Of a DNA stretch of 38,692 nucleotides, positions 1,877-9,069 are shown piece by piece (position 1 is the first letter of the stretch; every line of letters begins with the position of its first letter). Source of the DNA: Rubrivivax sp. GTDB taxonomy: Bacteria > Pseudomonadota > Gammaproteobacteria > Burkholderiales > Burkholderiaceae_C. Under the pieces are notes generated by a model that was not told where the DNA came from, did not search any database, and saw only the letters and a program-made list of their open reading frames with translations. The stretch lies in NCBI GenBank assembly GCA_016790425.1, contig JAEUPF010000139.1:1-38692 (forward strand). The letters run 5' to 3'. Position numbers and translations under genes: made by a program.

Positions 1877-1912
1877 GCGGGCCGGGCCCGGGGGCGCGGC
1901 AGAATGCCCGCC

Positions 1913-3211
1913 ATGGCCGACCACGCCTACCAGCCCGAGACGCTGGCCATCCACGCCGGCCAGATCCCCGACGCCGCCACCGGCGCGCGCGCGCTGCCGA
2001 TCTACCAGACGACGAGCTTCGTCTTCGACAGCGCCGAGCACGCCGCGAACCTGTTCAACCTGGCGACGTTCGGCAACGTCTACTCGCGGCTGTCCAACCC
2101 CACGGTGGCGGCGCTGGAGGAGCGCGTCGCCGCCCTCGAAGGCGGCCGCGCCGCGGTGGCCAGCGCCTCGGGCATGGCGGCCGAGTCGATGGCGCTGATG
2201 ACGATGCTGCAAGCCGGGGACCATGTCGTCGCCGCCGGCGCGCTCTACGGCGGCAGCGTGACGATGCTGGCTGTGAACCTCAGGAAGTTCGGCATCGAGA
2301 CGACCTTCGTCGACGCGACCAAGCCCGAGGCCTTCGCCGCGGCGATGCGCCCGGGCACGCGCGCCGTCTTCGCCGAGACGCTGGGCAACCCGAGCCTCGT
2401 CGTGCTCGACATCGCCGCCGTCGCCGCCGTGGCGCACGCGCACGGCGTGCCGCTGGTGGTGGACAACACGGTGCCGAGCCCGGCGCTGTGCAACCCGATC
2501 GCGCACGGCGCCGACATCGTCGTGCACAGCGCCACCAAGTACCTCGGCGGCCACGGCACCACGCTCGCCGGCATCGTCGTCGAGAGCGGCCGCTTTCCCT
2601 GGGACAACGGCAAGTTCCCGGGCATGACCGAGCCCTCGCCCGGCTACCACGGCGTGAAGTTCTTCGAGACCTTCGGCGACTTCGGCTTCACGATGCGCTG
2701 CCGCATGGAGACGCTGCGCGTGTACGGCGCGGCGCTGTCGCCGATGAGCGCGTGGCTCGTCCTGCAAGGCGTGGAGACGGTGCCGTTGCGCATGGAGCGG
2801 CACTGCGCCAACGCGCTGGCGGTGGCGCGGTTCCTGCGCGAAGACAAGCGGGTGAGCTTCGTCAACTACCCCGGCCTGCCCGACCACCCGCAGCACGCGC
2901 TGCTGGCGCGGCAGATGAAGGGCGCCTCGGGCCTGCTCGCCTTCGGTGTCAAGGCGGCCGGCAGCGGCGAGGCGGCGGCCGCCGGCGTGAAGTTCATCGA
3001 GAGCGCGCAGTTCATGAGCCACCTCGTCAACATCGGCGACACGCGCACGCTGATCAGCCACCCGGCCAGCACCACGCACCGCCAGCTCGACGAAGCGCAG
3101 CAGCGCGCCGCCGGCGTGACGCCGGAGATGGTGCGCATCTCGGTGGGGCTGGAGCACATCGACGACATCCTGTGGGACATCGACCAGGCGCTGGCGGCGG
3201 CGACCGCGTAG
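1913..3211 (+). CDS. metY: O-acetylhomoserine sulfhydrylase / aminocarboxypropyltransferase (MetY-like)
   Basis: About 432 residues closely following the O-acetylhomoserine (thiol)-lyase pattern: 'PETLAIHAGQIPDAATGA' at the N-terminus, 'PIYQTTSFVFD', 'YSRLSNPT', 'ASASGMAA', the PLP lysine K209 in 'HSATKYLGGHGTTLAG' and 'LISHPASTTHRQL'. The family makes homocysteine from O-acetylhomoserine and sulfide in the cytoplasm. Start is ambiguous: ATG at 1913 gives a terminus like homologues, while ATG at 1904 adds three residues; neither has a strong Shine-Dalgarno. With the upstream paralogue it forms a two-gene sulfur-assimilation unit. Its 3' end probably overlaps the start of the small protease gene that follows. 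Confidence 0.9.
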   Translation: MADHAYQPETLAIHAGQIPDAATGARALPIYQTTSFVFDSAEHAANLFNLATFGNVYSRLSNPTVAALEERVAALEGGRAAVASASGMAAESMALMTMLQAGDHVVAAGALYGGSVTMLAVNLRKFGIETTFVDATKPEAFAAAMRPGTRAVFAETLGNPSLVVLDIAAVAAVAHAHGVPLVVDNTVPSPALCNPIAHGADIVVHSATKYLGGHGTTLAGIVVESGRFPWDNGKFPGMTEPSPGYHGVKFFETFGDFGFTMRCRMETLRVYGAALSPMSAWLVLQGVETVPLRMERHCANALAVARFLREDKRVSFVNYPGLPDHPQHALLARQMKGASGLLAFGVKAAGSGEAAAAGVKFIESAQFMSHLVNIGDTRTLISHPASTTHRQLDEAQQRAAGVTPEMVRISVGLEHIDDILWDIDQALAAATA

Positions 3212-3669
3212 CGCAGCGGCGCCCGGGGCACGCCGCCTGGCTCGCCGTCGTCGCCCTCGGCGCGGTGCCGGTGGCGTGGGCCGCCGCGGCGCTGGGGGCG
3301 GGCATCGTGGCGAGCGATTGGCCGCTGCGTGACGTTGCGGGCCTCGTCCTCTGGTCGGTCAGCGAGGAGGTCGTGTTCCGCGGCGGCATCCAGACCGCGC
3401 TGGCCAGGGTGCCGGCGATCGCGAAGCGCCATCTCGCCGGGCCGGGCGGGAGCGCCGGCACGGTGACGCTGGCCAACGCGCTGACCAGCGTCCTGTTCGC
3501 CACCGCTCACCTGTGGCACAAGAGCGCGCTGGTGGCCGCGGCGGTGTTCCCGGTCTCGCTCGTCCTCGGCGCGAGCCTGGAGCGCACCGGCTTGCTGCGC
3601 GTGCCGGCGGCGCTGCACACCTGGTTCAACCTGCTGCTGTACGCCGCGAGCGCCTGGCACGCGGCGTGA
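3172..3669 (+). CDS. mrtJ: JDVT-CTERM system glutamic-type intramembrane protease (CPBP/CAAX-like), MrtJ-type
   Basis: A small hydrophobic protein with the three CPBP/ABI glutamic protease motifs. Numbered from GTG 3172 these are 'SEEVVFRGG' (E65, E66, R70), 'LFATAHLWH' (H113) and 'HTWFN' (H149, N153). 'LANALTSVLFATAHL' and four or so membrane segments fit the MrtJ subgroup that processes JDVT-CTERM proteins. The adjacent convergent gene encodes a protein with such a C-terminal tail, and the two genes overlap by 44 bases at their 3' ends. The start is unresolved: the only upstream in-frame candidate is GTG 3172 inside metY, without a clear ribosome site; GTG 3265 or 3271 would cut into the first membrane segment. 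Expected role: cleavage of the JDVT tail in the inner membrane after export. Confidence 0.75.
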   Translation: MGHRPGAGGGDRVAQRRPGHAAWLAVVALGAVPVAWAAAALGAGIVASDWPLRDVAGLVLWSVSEEVVFRGGIQTALARVPAIAKRHLAGPGGSAGTVTLANALTSVLFATAHLWHKSALVAAAVFPVSLVLGASLERTGLLRVPAALHTWFNLLLYAASAWHAA

Positions 3670-5575
3670 GCCGGGCGGCGCGCCGGCGCCAGCCGAGCAC
3701 GAAGGCCGCCAGCAGCGTCATCGCCGGCAGCACGGGGTCGATGCCGCTCGTCGCGCGGCCGATCGTGCAGCCGCCGCCGCCGCCGTCCTGCGCTGCATCC
3801 GCGCTCGGCGCGGGGCTGGGGCTGGGTGAAGGGCTCGGTGAAGGGCTCGGTGAAGGGCTCGGTGAAGGGCTCGGTGAAGGGCTGGGGCCGGGGCTGGGGC
3901 TGGGGCCGGGGCTCGGCGAAGGGCCCGGGCTCGGCGCGGGCGCGGTGTTCGCCACCGTCACGGTCACCGGCGACGAGGTGGTGGTATTGCCTGCCGCGTC
4001 GCGCGCCACTGCGCTGAGCGTGTGCGCGCCGTTGCTGGCCGAGGTGGTGTTCCAGCTCAGCGCATAGGGCGGCGCGGTCACTTCCGCGCCGAGGCTGGCG
4101 CCGTCGAGCCTGAACTGCACGCCGGCCACGCCGACGTTGTCGGCCGCCGCGGCGGTGACCGTGACGCTGCCCGAAACCGTGCCCGCGCCGGGCGCCGGCG
4201 CGGTCAGCGAAACGCTCGGCGGCGAAGTGTCGCCACCACCGCCCGTTGCGCCGCCGGCGACCTTGAATCCGGAGACGATGCGCCAGCCGGGGTTCGCGGC
4301 GGCGCCGAGCGCCTCGTAGGCGCCGACATCGAACGGCGCCGAACGTGCCGAGCGGTTGAAGTCGCTGCCGGGGGCGTGCGCGGCCACGGCGCGATCGATC
4401 AGCGGCGAGCCGGCGCGCGGCCAGAAGTCCTTGTTCGCCGCGTCGACGAACGCGTTGGCCGCCGTGCCGCCGTCGATGAAGCGGGTGCCGTCCAACGCGA
4501 TGCTGCTGCTGCCTTGCACGAGGTTGCCGAGCACGGTGGCGCCGGCCGCGAAGCTGCCGCCGGCATTCACGGCCGCCTTGCCCGGCGAGTAGACGGCGTT
4601 GTTGGCGAGCACCATGTTCGCGACGCTGCCGCCCCAGCGCACGTACAGGCCGTCGTCGTTTCCGTACAGCGTGTTGTTGACGGCGGTGACGTTCTTCATC
4701 TGCGCCACCTGCACGTGGCTGTAGAGCGAAAGCCCCGTGCCGCTGGTGATGACGATGTTGTTGCGCACCACCGCGTCGGCGACGGCGTAGATGCCCTCCA
4801 GGCAGTTCCAGATGACGTTGCCCTCGACCACGTTGACCGGGTTGGCGCCCGTGCCGTAGACGAAGATGCCGGGGTACGGCATGTCGTGGATGACGTTGTC
4901 GCGGATCGTGATCGAGTGCGAGCCGACCTTGACCTCGATGCCGTCGCCTTGCGTCGTGCCGGGCAGCGCGTCGTGGATCCAGTTGTTCTCGATCAGCGAG
5001 CTGTGCACGATGCAGGTGGCGTCGTTGCAGCCCACATACATGCCTTCGCCGGTGCCGCCGCCGATGCCGGTGCGCCGGATCTGGTTGCGGCGCACGGTGA
5101 TGTTGCTCATCGAGCTGCGGAAGTTGATGCCGACGTCCACGTCGTGGATGTCGAGGTCTTCCAGCGTGATGAACGACGGGCCGCCGCTCATGTTGATGCC
5201 GTCGCCGCCGTTGCCCACGATCTCCAGCCCCCTGATCGTCAGGTAGGTGGCGCCTTCGATGTTGATCGTGTTCTGAATCGCCGCGCCCGCCGGGCGCGTG
5301 ATGACGGGGCGCGCTTCCCCGTCGGCGGCCTTGACGACAACCGGCAGCGCCGCGGTGCCGCGCACCGAGATGCCGATGCGGCCACTGTCGGCATAGGTGC
5401 CGGCGTGCACGATCAGCGTGTCGCCGGGCTGCAGCGACTCCACCGCCGCCTCGAAGCTCGAGCCGGGCATCAGGTGGATGGTGCGCCCGCCGGACTGGGC
5501 CCACAGCGGGCCGGCGGCAGCGCAAAGGAGCAGCACCGTGGTGCGGCGGCAGAGGGAGCGGGTCGGCTTCGGCAT
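3626..5575 (-). CDS. Secreted right-handed parallel beta-helix protein with JDVT-CTERM sorting tail
   Basis: 649 residues. Residues 1-26 form a Sec signal peptide ('VLLLCAAAGPLWAQ'). Residues about 30-425 are a right-handed parallel beta-helix of the pectate-lyase/NosD type, with repeating strand-turn units such as 'NITVRRNQIRRTGIGGG' and 'SITIRDNVIHDMPYPG'. Residues about 450-545 are a bacterial Ig-like domain ('DTSPPSVSLTAP', 'NVGVAGVQFRLDG'). A Pro/Ser linker follows (about 547-595), then a glycine run, C603, 'IDPVLP' (I612-D613), a membrane segment and 'WRRR': the JDVT-CTERM arrangement. The tail runs about 17 basic residues past the usual end. No catalytic residues could be assigned to the helix; a polysaccharide-binding or lyase role is possible but unproven. 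The product is expected at the cell surface after processing by the adjacent protease. Confidence 0.88.
   Translation of the reverse strand: MPKPTRSLCRRTTVLLLCAAAGPLWAQSGGRTIHLMPGSSFEAAVESLQPGDTLIVHAGTYADSGRIGISVRGTAALPVVVKAADGEARPVITRPAGAAIQNTINIEGATYLTIRGLEIVGNGGDGINMSGGPSFITLEDLDIHDVDVGINFRSSMSNITVRRNQIRRTGIGGGTGEGMYVGCNDATCIVHSSLIENNWIHDALPGTTQGDGIEVKVGSHSITIRDNVIHDMPYPGIFVYGTGANPVNVVEGNVIWNCLEGIYAVADAVVRNNIVITSGTGLSLYSHVQVAQMKNVTAVNNTLYGNDDGLYVRWGGSVANMVLANNAVYSPGKAAVNAGGSFAAGATVLGNLVQGSSSIALDGTRFIDGGTAANAFVDAANKDFWPRAGSPLIDRAVAAHAPGSDFNRSARSAPFDVGAYEALGAAANPGWRIVSGFKVAGGATGGGGDTSPPSVSLTAPAPGAGTVSGSVTVTAAAADNVGVAGVQFRLDGASLGAEVTAPPYALSWNTTSASNGAHTLSAVARDAAGNTTTSSPVTVTVANTAPAPSPGPSPSPGPSPSPGPSPSPSPSPSPSPSPSPSPSPSPSPAPSADAAQDGGGGGCTIGRATSGIDPVLPAMTLLAAFVLGWRRRAARLTPRARRSRRTAAG
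3825..3884. repeat. 12-bp tandem repeat (5 copies) encoding the Pro/Ser linker
   Basis: Five consecutive copies of GGTGAAGGGCTC (last copy ends in G) inside the minus-strand beta-helix gene, where they read as alternating Ser-Pro. The repeat continues as degenerate GGGGCTGGGGCC units up to about 3930. Copy-number change would lengthen or shorten the linker in frame. Confidence 0.9.
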
Positions 5576-5803
5576 GGGGGAACTCGGGCGCTGGGTGTCG
5601 GGGCTTGGCGTCGGGATGAAGGCGCCGCGACGAACCCGCCGAGCCTAGAGGTGCCGGCAGCCCCCGCCGCCGGCAGCGGCGAATCGCTCTGTAAGAAACG
5701 TCATGGAAGGGCTGCGGCAGGCGTCGTGCAGAATCCGCTCCTCACTGCTCTTTCCCCTTATTCCGCTCTCTCTCAAGCGAGCCACCCACGGAGTCAAGCC
5801 CCC

Positions 5804-6784
5804 ATGTCCCGATCCGCTTCTTCGCGTCGTGCTGTCCTTGCCGCGTTCGGCGCTGTCGCCACTGCTGCCGCCTTTGTCGCGCTGCCGGCGCAGGCGCAGC
5901 AGTTCTTCCGCATCGGCACCGGCGGCACTGCAGGCACCTACTACCCGGTGGGCGGCATGATCGCCAACGCGGTGAGCCAGCCGGGCAAGATCGTCGTCAC
6001 GGCGCAGGCGAGCAACGGGTCGCTGGCCAACGTCACCGGCATCGCCGGCGGCGCGATGGAGTCGGGCTTCTCGCAGGCCGACGTCGCCTCGTGGGCCTAC
6101 AAGGGCAACGGCATCTTCGAAGGCAAGCCCAGCGTTCCGGGGCTGCGCCTGATCGCCAACCTGTACCCCGAGAGCGTGCACGTGGTGGTGAAGAAGGGCA
6201 GCGGCATCAAGAGCGTGGCCGACCTGAAGGGCCGCCGCGTCGCGCTGGACGAGCCGGGCTCGGGCACGCTGGTCAATGCACGCGCCATCCTCGCCGCCTA
6301 TGGCGTCAAGGAGTCCGACCTCAAGGCCGAGTACATCAAGCCCAACCAGGCCGGCGACAAGCTCAAGGACGGCGCGCTCGACGCGTTCTTCTTCACCGGC
6401 GGCGCGCCGGCCGGCGCCATCGCCGAGCTGGCCAGCGCCGGCACCGGCATCGAGATCCTGCCGATCGACGGCGCCGCGGCCGAGCAGCTCAAGAAGACCA
6501 GCGGCTTCTTCGCCGACGACGTGATCGCCGCCGACACCTACAAGGGCGTGGGCCAGGTGAAGACGCTCGCCGTCGGCGCGCAGTGGGTCACCAGCGACAA
6601 GGCCGACGCGGCCACGGTCTACGAGCTGACCAAGGCGCTGTTCAGCGAGGCGGCGCAGAAGTCGCTGGCCGCCGGGCACGCCAAGGGCAAGTTCATCACC
6701 AAGGAGAACGCGGTCAAGGGCGCGGGCATCCCGTTCCACCCCGGCGCCGAGCGGTTCTACAAGGAAGCCGGGCTGCTGAAGTAG
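5804..6784 (+). CDS. TAXI family TRAP transporter solute-binding subunit
   Basis: 326 residues. The ATG at 5804 is preceded by GGAG and starts a signal peptide with an alanine-rich core and a cleavage site after 'LPAQAQ'. The mature protein begins with 'FFRIGTGGTAGTYYPVGG', the hallmark of the TAXI (TRAP-associated extracytoplasmic immunogenic) binding proteins. 'VVVKKGSGIKSVADLKGRRV' and 'LDEPGSGTLVNARAIL' line the ligand cleft in this family. It captures a small anionic or zwitterionic solute in the periplasm and delivers it to the fused permease encoded 95 bases downstream. Ligand unknown; TAXI proteins are generally linked to glutamate/glutamine or other organic acids. A hairpin and T-run lie directly after it and may favour the binding protein over the permease. 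Confidence 0.93.
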   Translation: MSRSASSRRAVLAAFGAVATAAAFVALPAQAQQFFRIGTGGTAGTYYPVGGMIANAVSQPGKIVVTAQASNGSLANVTGIAGGAMESGFSQADVASWAYKGNGIFEGKPSVPGLRLIANLYPESVHVVVKKGSGIKSVADLKGRRVALDEPGSGTLVNARAILAAYGVKESDLKAEYIKPNQAGDKLKDGALDAFFFTGGAPAGAIAELASAGTGIEILPIDGAAAEQLKKTSGFFADDVIAADTYKGVGQVKTLAVGAQWVTSDKADAATVYELTKALFSEAAQKSLAAGHAKGKFITKENAVKGAGIPFHPGAERFYKEAGLLK

Positions 6785-6879: not shown

Positions 6880-9069
6880 ATGACCACCGCCACGCTCGAC
6901 GACAAAGCGCTCGACGAACTCGAGCGCAAGTACGACCCCGAGATGCGCTTCCGCCCGCTCACCGCGGCGGCGGCGACGCTGGTCGGCGCGCTGCTGATCG
7001 CGCTGTCGTGCTTCCACTACTACACCGCCGGCTTCGGCCTGCTGCAGGAGATCACGCACCGCGGCGTGCACCTGGCGTTCGTGCTCGGGCTGATCTTCCT
7101 CGTCTTCCCGCACCGGCACGCGCTGCTCGAGCGCGCCGCGCAGCACCGCTGGTGGGCGCCGGGCAACGTGCCGTGGTTCGACTGGCTGCTGGCGGTGGCC
7201 ATCGCCGCTGCGGTGCTGTACATCCCGTGGATCTTCGACGACCTCGCGTTCCGGGTCGGCAACCCCGGCCCGCTCGACGTCGCGATGGGCTCGATCCTGC
7301 TCGTGGCGCTGCTGGAGGCGACGCGCCGCGCGATGGGCTGGCCGCTGCCGCTGATCGCCATCGCCTTCATGTTCTACGCGCTGGCGGGGCCGGTGTTCCC
7401 GGGGCTGCTGAAGCACGCCGGCGCCAGCTGGAGCCAGCTCGTCAACCACCAGTACCTCACCAGCCAGGGCATCTACGGCGTCGCCGTGGGCGTCGTCGCG
7501 ACGTACGTCTTCCACTTCGTGCTCTTCGGCGTGCTCGCCACGCGCATCGGCCTCGGCCAGCTCTTCCTCGACATCGCCAGCGCCATTGCCGGGCGCTACG
7601 CCGGCGGGCCGGCCAAGGTGAGCGTGTTCGGCTCGGCGATGTTCGGCATGCTCTCGGGCAGCTCGGTGGCCAACGCGGTGACGGTGGGCTCGCTGACCAT
7701 TCCCGCGATGATCCGCGTCGGCTACAAGCGCGAGTTCGCCGGCGCCGTCGAAGCGGCTTCGTCCACCGGCGGCCAGATCACGCCGCCGGTGCTGGGCGCG
7801 GCGGCGTTCCTGATGATCGAGTTCCTCTCGGTCCCGTACCAGACGATCATCGCCGCGGCGGCCATTCCCGCCTTCATGCATTTCTTCGGCGTCTTCATGC
7901 AGGTGCATTTCGAGGCCAAGCGCTTCGGGCTGCGCGGCCTCACCGAAGAGGAGATGCCACGGCTGCGCGAAAGCCTGCGCCAGCGCTGGCCGACGCTGAT
8001 CCCGCTGGCGCTGCTGATCTTCATCCTCGTCACCGGCCGCACGCCGTACATGGCGGCGTTCGCGGGCATCAGCTCGTGCGCCATCGTCGGCCTCACCACG
8101 CGCGCGGCGGGCAACACCGCGCGCCACTGGGGGCTGCTCGCCTTCGGGCACGCGCTGCTGGCGGTGCTGGTGTTCGGCGGCATCCACAGCGACGCCGTGC
8201 GCCTGGCCGTCTTCGCCGCCGGCCTCGTCGCCATCCCGCTGGCGGTGCGCGCGTGGAGGCTCGAAGGCCGCATCGCGCCGCACGCCTTCATCGAGGCGTT
8301 CAGCACCGGCGCCAAGTACGCGCTGGCAGTGGGCGCGGCGGCAGCGACGGTGGGCATCGTCATCGGCGTGGTCACGCTCACCGGCGTCGGCTTCAAGCTC
8401 AGCATGCTCATCACCGGCGCGGCGCAGGCGGTGGCCGGCGGCGTGGGTACGCTGGTGCCGGCGGCGCTCATGAGCCAGCAGGCGATGACGCTGTTCGTCG
8501 CGCTGGCCATGACCGGGCTCGTGTGCATCCTGCTCGGCTGCGGCATCCCGACCACGGCCAACTACATCATCATGGTGACGGTGGCCGCGCCGACGCTCGT
8601 GCAGCTGGGCGTCGAGCCGCTGGTGGCGCACTTCTTCGTCTTCTACTACGGCGTGCTCGCCGACATCACGCCGCCGGTGGCGCTGGCCGCCTATGCCGCA
8701 GCCGGCATGGCCGGCAGCGACCCGTTCCGCACCGGCAACACGGCCTTCCGGCTCGGCATGGCCAAGGCGCTGGTGCCGTTCGTGTTCGTCTTCTCGCCCT
8801 CGCTGCTGATCGTGGCCAAGGGCTTCACGGGCTATGACTTCGCGATCACCTTCGTCGGCTGCGTGCTGGGCATCGTGATGCTGGCGGCGGCGCTGTCGAA
8901 GTTCTTCCTGGTCGAGATGACCCGCGCCGAGCAGGGCCTGTGCCTGGCCGGCGCGCTGCTGCTCATCGCGCCAGGACTGTTGCCGACGCTGCTCGGCGCG
9001 GCCTGCACGGTGCCGATGGTGCTGCGGCATCTGGCCGCCTGGCGGCGGCCCGCGGCGGCGCCGTCCTGA
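6880..9069 (+). CDS. TRAP transporter fused permease (4TM small + 12TM large subunit)
   Basis: 729 residues, almost entirely hydrophobic helices. The N-terminal part (to about residue 190) corresponds to the DctQ-like four-helix subunit; the rest is the DctM-like ion-coupled transporter. Characteristic signatures are 'SVFGSAMFGMLSGSSVANAV' (about 245-265), 'ASSTGGQITPPVLGAAAFLM' (about 290-310), 'GCGIPTTANYIIM' and 'ITPPVALAAYAAAGMAGSDP', the repeated GxxTPP elements of the TRAP fused-permease family. It imports the solute handed over by the TAXI protein using a cation gradient. The start ATG 6880 gives 'MTTATLDDKALDELERKYDP', an ordinary amphipathic cytosolic head. The fused form normally pairs with TAXI binding proteins, as here. 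Confidence 0.94.
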   Translation: MTTATLDDKALDELERKYDPEMRFRPLTAAAATLVGALLIALSCFHYYTAGFGLLQEITHRGVHLAFVLGLIFLVFPHRHALLERAAQHRWWAPGNVPWFDWLLAVAIAAAVLYIPWIFDDLAFRVGNPGPLDVAMGSILLVALLEATRRAMGWPLPLIAIAFMFYALAGPVFPGLLKHAGASWSQLVNHQYLTSQGIYGVAVGVVATYVFHFVLFGVLATRIGLGQLFLDIASAIAGRYAGGPAKVSVFGSAMFGMLSGSSVANAVTVGSLTIPAMIRVGYKREFAGAVEAASSTGGQITPPVLGAAAFLMIEFLSVPYQTIIAAAAIPAFMHFFGVFMQVHFEAKRFGLRGLTEEEMPRLRESLRQRWPTLIPLALLIFILVTGRTPYMAAFAGISSCAIVGLTTRAAGNTARHWGLLAFGHALLAVLVFGGIHSDAVRLAVFAAGLVAIPLAVRAWRLEGRIAPHAFIEAFSTGAKYALAVGAAAATVGIVIGVVTLTGVGFKLSMLITGAAQAVAGGVGTLVPAALMSQQAMTLFVALAMTGLVCILLGCGIPTTANYIIMVTVAAPTLVQLGVEPLVAHFFVFYYGVLADITPPVALAAYAAAGMAGSDPFRTGNTAFRLGMAKALVPFVFVFSPSLLIVAKGFTGYDFAITFVGCVLGIVMLAAALSKFFLVEMTRAEQGLCLAGALLLIAPGLLPTLLGAACTVPMVLRHLAAWRRPAAAPS

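Follow-up and report, generated by a model that had tools for sequence, protein, structure and literature searches.

A MrtJ-like protease gene and the gene of its probable JDVT-CTERM target in a tail-to-tail, overlapping arrangement in Rubrivivax sp.

The described system closest to the locus reported here consists of two genes, one encoding a CPBP-family glutamic intramembrane protease, MrtJ (NCBIfam NF033192), and the other a protein with a JDVT-CTERM sorting tail (NF033191; Haft 2024, cited in PMC11980579). The accessible part of PMC11980579 gives this system as a genome-based prediction, and the experimental work described there concerns the CPBP relative MrtX, the myxosortase of Myxococcus xanthus, which has been shown to cleave the Cys-bearing MYXO-CTERM tail. 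In rhombosortase/GlyGly-CTERM (PMC3237569, in its accessible part) a C-terminal sorting tail is likewise processed by an intramembrane protease, but that enzyme is a rhomboid serine protease and not a CPBP glutamic protease. Here we describe a pair of the MrtJ/JDVT-CTERM kind in a window of 38,692 nucleotides (contig JAEUPF010000139.1 of Rubrivivax sp., assembly GCA_016790425.1), where the protease gene (3172-3669, plus strand) and the target gene (3626-5575, minus strand) are convergent and overlap by 44 bases (3626-3669), coordinates that a first-pass annotation of the window had given correctly. It is probable, in our view, that the two form a C-terminal sorting pair of MrtJ/JDVT-CTERM type in an uncommon tail-to-tail form, the overlap having arisen by a single stop loss that was then inherited. 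As MrtJ/JDVT gene pairs are already published (PMC11980579, in its accessible part), what looks new is the convergent, interlocked layout; the titles and abstract openings of open-access papers on JDVT-CTERM and MrtJ contain no convergent or overlapping layout, which is weak evidence of novelty, subscription papers lying mostly outside that set.

The target gene, which starts at ATG 5575 and ends with the stop at 3626, encodes a predicted secreted right-handed beta-helix protein of 649 residues. Its N-terminus is signal-peptide-like (judged by eye) and is followed by a beta-helix region (residues 101-245, 4841-5275, minus strand; Pfam Beta_helix, PF13229, 70.9 bits) and a bacterial Ig-like domain (residues 453-522, 4010-4219, minus strand; Big_7, PF17957, 62.6 bits). 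The JDVT-CTERM domain occupies residues 598-633 (3677-3784, minus strand), with Cys603 at 3767-3769. The first-pass annotation had proposed this layout and had named failure against the family model as evidence to the contrary; the tail aligns over the entire model (1-35 of 35) at 47.6 bits (E=1.1e-12), above the cut-off of 27. Read in translation it is tripartite, GGGGGC-TIGRATSG-IDPVLP-helix-WRRR, consisting of the Cys603 motif, a hydrophobic helix and a basic end. This is also the organisation of MYXO-CTERM, which has an invariant Cys, a helix and an Arg cluster (PMC11980579, in its accessible part), so that a similar mode of working may be supposed. A choice-of-anchor Q model scores 21.6 bits, just below its cut-off of 25, a near-match consistent with a surface-anchored protein. 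Ahead of the sorting tail lies a Pro-Ser-Gly-rich stalk (3812-3936, minus strand) coded by short tandem repeats with units of 6, 12, 18 bases and longer, and the length of this stalk may be variable.

The protease gene encodes 165 residues from a GTG start. Among the NCBIfam models MrtJ gives the best score (62 bits as protein, E=6.6e-17; 63.2 bits in six-frame translation), followed by Mrt_core (51.5), MrtP (46.5) and MrtC (36.2); MrtS and MrtX also score lower than MrtJ, MrtX (NF040593) reaching 23.2 bits against a cut-off of 180. The Pfam Rce1-like family (PF02517) is matched at 44.7 bits, above its gathering score of 22.4. The EE/R, H and HxxxN motifs claimed at the outset are all present, and are invariant in an alignment of 16 proteases (alignment A2), where they belong to a set of 8 invariant columns: EExxxR as EEVVFR (3364-3381; E52, E53, R57), the catalytic His (3508-3510; H100) and HxxFN as HTWFN (3616-3630; H136, N140), all on the plus strand. 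The same motifs occur in MrtX, which is longer (239 residues) and serves dozens of targets with one enzyme according to the accessible part of PMC11980579. An AlphaFold2 model of the protease part from 3211 on, built with the 16 aligned proteases, is confident and helical, with five helices of at least 14 residues and a mean predicted local distance difference test score (pLDDT) of 88.2. Where the protein begins is uncertain. The frame lacks an ATG start, and GTG 3172 falls within the upstream gene, whose stop is at 3211, so giving a 5' overlap of 40 bases by open reading frame coordinates (3172-3211, plus strand). Other common in-frame starts lie farther up within that neighbouring gene. Of those ahead of the first helix the closest to it is GTG 3172, and the next one, GTG 3265, is past the beginning of this helix.

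Association of the two families was assessed across 299 genomes from the GTDB family to which the window belongs, proteases being called MrtJ-grade at 63 bits or more, a line set so that the window's own protein counts in; two weaker proteases (G115 and G268, 33.7 and 39.1 bits) were included on the ground that they adjoin a JDVT gene. JDVT-CTERM was above cut-off in 36 genomes, at 47 loci. Both families occurred together in 33 genomes, JDVT-CTERM alone in 3, MrtJ alone in 3 and neither in 260 (31, 5, 3 and 260, respectively, if the two hand-added proteases are omitted). The MrtJ-only genomes (G083, G104, G163) are only 70-85% complete; the JDVT-only genomes are G195 (L072), G269 (L073) and G046 (L076), the first two of which, placed in the window's GTDB genus, are scored as 99-100% complete. 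At 33 of the 47 JDVT-CTERM loci a MrtJ-grade gene lies within 6 kb: 29 pairs are tandem (16 target-first, 13 enzyme-first), 1 is divergent and 3 are convergent, while the 14 loci with no MrtJ in this range include short contigs (e.g. 4.7 kb and 7.3 kb). The window thus resembles the described system in having the same sorting tail above cut-off and a protease with MrtJ as its best model beside one target; it differs in that the protease is under the MrtJ cut-off and the genes are convergent and overlapping, against 29 tandem arrangements among 33 linked loci. A survey of adjacency and convergence had been proposed for this locus; overlapping convergent pairs were present in two further genomes, in support of the first-pass annotation, and with the window they make up 3 of the 47 loci. 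Fourteen control genomes contained no JDVT-CTERM match at E<=1e-4; the MrtJ model matched in 5 of them at E<=1e-9, none above cut-off, indicating that matches of about 40-45 bits are ordinary CPBP proteases. A class-wide sample of 369 genomes yielded 59 MrtJ matches, and the 30 loci read, with flanks of up to 1.5 kb on each side where the contig allowed, comprised 8 tandem target-first pairs, no convergent pair and 22 loci where no JDVT was seen over that distance (the 29 unread matches include the window's own).

The two other convergent pairs are in G192 and G266, which share a genus of the family different from that of the window. A tree of 57 rows and 105 columns places the window protease among the MrtJ-like rows and unites the three convergent proteases with an orphan from G639 in a clade with support of 99/91. 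MrtJ is the best NCBIfam model for all four (62.2, 72.7 and 67.2 bits for the other three). Further members are scarce: 349 genomes of the order gave 2 weak matches besides the window; none of 60 genomes of the window's genus had a match of comparable score, the one other match being at 45.6 bits; 398 relatives gave 16 other matches, the best at 80.1 bits against 227.8 for the window; and the 6 genomes of G192's genus contributed one more, G639. A pattern scan of genome contigs returned three loci, those of G192 and G266 and one of 40% identity without a JDVT neighbour. A PHROGs search gave no match.

The three convergent overlaps are 44 (window), 56 and 50 bases long and have an identical phase, 123:132, in which third codon positions of the protease are second codon positions of the target. 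In all three the target TGA (3626-3628, minus strand, in the window by direct reading; 7951-7953 of L070 and 3097-3099 of L071 for the corresponding stops) is antisense to the Phe-Asn codons TTC-AAY of the protease HxxFN motif, TTC AAC in the window. The lengths differ because the protease C-terminus past this motif differs. By the logic of the genetic code the target stop cannot be lost while Phe-Asn is kept, since the antisense frame gives TGA or TAA with any synonymous codons. Enzyme and probable substrate would in this way constrain one another's sequence through shared stop and active-site codons. Occurrence of the same layout in separate assemblies speaks against an assembly artefact.

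The target bodies differ between the genera. DUF7948, SBBP and DUF7619 domains are present in the convergent targets of both G192 and G266, which share 60% identity, and the window's beta-helix protein gives no blastp match to either at E<=1e-3. A new body may have replaced the old one while tail and protease were retained, or each genus may have put its pair together separately. G639 (92% complete, 6% contamination), of the same genus as G192 and G266, has kept the protease in the same surroundings and has lost the target gene save for a stub (L099 about 8001-8096; G639:C57), which encodes a membrane helix and a basic tail. The stub still reads DASLPLFVILAAGVLFIGRWQGALRRRKAEG, terminates at the Phe-Asn stop seen in the convergent pairs and lacks the Cys motif. 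It scores 16.1 bits with JDVT-CTERM in a lax pass (30 residues, 14 bits) and is below the stricter one (at least 50 residues, at least 20 bits), so that its identification leans as much on position and the syntenic DNA match as on this weak score.

The pair is proposed to work as follows. After export by Sec, the C-terminal helix of the beta-helix protein would keep it in the inner membrane, and its basic tail would lie on the cytoplasmic side. Recognition of the Cys603 region would follow, probably after lipidation of the Cys, and cleavage by the protease beside Cys603 would allow the protein to be handed on and anchored at the cell surface. As to the origin of the overlap, in the ancestor of the small protease clade the target frame most likely lost its own stop, once, and ran on antisense to the protease gene as far as the Phe-Asn codons, the frame and its new stop then being inherited while the target body came to differ between genera.

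Two observations on convergent overlaps in prokaryotes bear on this scenario: in the accessible part of PMC2174442, 123:132 is the commonest phase among convergent overlaps of at least 5 bp (49% of 1,218), particularly in those shorter than about 50 bp, and stop-codon loss is suggested as their main source. The present overlap differs from such cases in that the stop is fixed by catalytic codons of the partner, and that the partners are an enzyme and its probable substrate. In an alternative explanation the overlap was selected, the protease gene forming a locked cassette with the 3' part of the target gene that codes for the tail, such that any secreted body spliced upstream gains both tag and enzyme; antisense of the last membrane helix would encode the basic tail, and the active-site codons would provide a stop immutable without damage to the enzyme. 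To evaluate the antisense coding capacity, the last 17 codons of 34 MrtJ-like genes (of the 57 in the tree) were read in the three antisense phases. The tail was most basic in phase 123:132, with a mean of 5.47 Lys or Arg residues (2.59 and 2.53 in the other two); its net charge reached at least +3 in 29 of 34 genes (3 and 12 of 34). A tail expected to be basic can therefore tolerate the overlap. The result agrees with the cassette, as does the presence of unrelated bodies on the same kind of junction. However, 123:132 is also the phase most often closed, being stop-free across the 17 codons in 13 of 34 genes versus 30 and 17 in the others, and it is the commonest convergent phase anyway; the clade represents one independent origin only, and common descent of the tail-coding DNA outside the overlap, for this genome and the G192 genus, is putative. 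Given the general frequency of this phase and a tree that permits a single origin, we do not take its recurrence to prove selection, and we consider a selected cassette unlikely. Its extended form, a mobile sorting cassette with Phe-Asn as an unlosable antisense stop and a different body acquired upstream in each lineage, seems rather unlikely. Because the used phase is often closed, is the commonest among convergent overlaps and is seen in three cases that make up one clade, stop loss, once, followed by inheritance is most likely to account for the overlap, without selection.

Several results weigh against a MrtJ/JDVT-CTERM sorting pair as such. The protease falls 13 bits short of the curated MrtJ cut-off (62 versus 75), and all four clade proteases are below it (62 to 72.7 bits). 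No match in the Protein Data Bank (PDB) was obtained with Foldseek for the AlphaFold model at E<=0.001 or with the protease alignment profile against PDB sequences at E<=0.1. The window lies in an assembly of 178 contigs that is 82% complete. JDVT-CTERM occurs without a MrtJ-grade protease in 3 of 36 genomes, so other CPBP proteases may serve JDVT tails, or the tail may have no need of MrtJ. In favour of the pair, the protease is, judged from nonsynonymous (dN) and synonymous (dS) substitutions, under purifying selection within the genus of G192 (dN 0.24-0.34, dS 1.02-1.07, 3 pairs); for the window protease this is less clear (dN 0.52-0.58, dS 0.76-1.16, 3 pairs with the other clade members). 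A better score of the protease to an unrelated CPBP clade had been named in the first-pass annotation as refuting evidence; among NCBIfam and Pfam models MrtJ ranks first, but the score falls short of the MrtJ cut-off.

Such results could be taken to mean that two independent genes overlap by accident, a general CPBP enzyme on one side and, on the other, a target sorted by a different enzyme elsewhere in the genome, where CPBP matches of lower score (38.5 and 32.4 bits) are present. We regard this as improbable: the score below cut-off and the three JDVT-only genomes would fit, but MrtJ is the best NCBIfam model throughout the clade, a MrtJ-grade gene accompanies 33 of 47 JDVT-CTERM loci, and co-occurrence at the genome level is strong. 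Mutual regulation of the antisense 3' ends, which had been suggested for this locus and would tie enzyme and target levels together by convergent transcription, RNA duplex formation or polymerase collision, is very improbable. The geometry would permit it, and bacterial sense and antisense transcription is reported to collide (PMC10349824, in its accessible part), but no terminator-like and no promoter-like site was found at 2900-5900 (a weak test in DNA of 73% G+C), and the protease of G639 persists without its partner.

A sorting pair of MrtJ/JDVT-CTERM type, which we continue to favour, need not be exclusive. The couple had been described as private, and in this genome of 4.3 Mb there is indeed one MrtJ-grade match and one JDVT-CTERM above cut-off, the window's target, within the completeness of the assembly. 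Strict privacy was nevertheless dropped, since in G192 a single MrtJ-grade protease is accompanied by two JDVT-CTERM proteins, and in G639 the protease is kept without a convergent target; the enzyme is thus not strictly private. G639 does possess one JDVT-CTERM protein on a separate contig, and its G192 homologue (58% identical, in syntenic DNA) is also on a separate contig, with no MrtJ found within 14-15 kb of either gene. The simplest reading is that the clade protease serves the unlinked protein in trans. Among the 6 genomes of this genus, JDVT-CTERM and a MrtJ-grade protease occur together in 4 and are both absent from 2. G266 contains two complete systems, one convergent (L071, G266:C145, motif CTIG) and one tandem (L148, G266:C408, motif CSIAR), and the difference at the Cys motif offers a possible natural test of specificity. 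In the window, a 165-residue enzyme interlocked in DNA with the sole apparent target of its genome provides a small two-gene system for the study of cleavage and lipidation.

The extra basic tail of about 17 residues, noted early on as a peculiarity of the target, exists and extends 16 residues beyond the end of the JDVT-CTERM model, but it is not unusual. Tails running at least 16 residues past the model were counted in 6 of 29 cases including the window's (lengths by eye; 30 seed loci, one left out since its frame continues into another domain), and the long tail was dropped as a special feature.

Directly upstream of the protease gene are two genes, 566-1876 and 1904-3211 (the latter on the plus strand and overlapping the protease gene), which we take, by eye from the sequence and not by family search, to encode enzymes of Cys/Met metabolism of the pyridoxal phosphate type; they are 33% identical to each other. 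To the right lie genes of a tripartite ATP-independent periplasmic (TRAP) transporter; close orthologues of these occur at 13 further loci within the genus (L153-L165). The left-hand enzyme pair was beside these orthologues in none of the 13 loci, over the 1.5 kb or less covered on that side, and in none of the 6 of them widened to 3.4-6.9 kb. A clean empty site was dropped accordingly as a means of dating.

One further JDVT-CTERM gene has an unusual structure. In G091 (L081 9581-12364, minus strand; also L046) the tail is followed by about 160 in-frame residues that resemble, by eye, a signal peptide and a thioredoxin-like (WCGPC) domain, so that the sorting signal would be internal.

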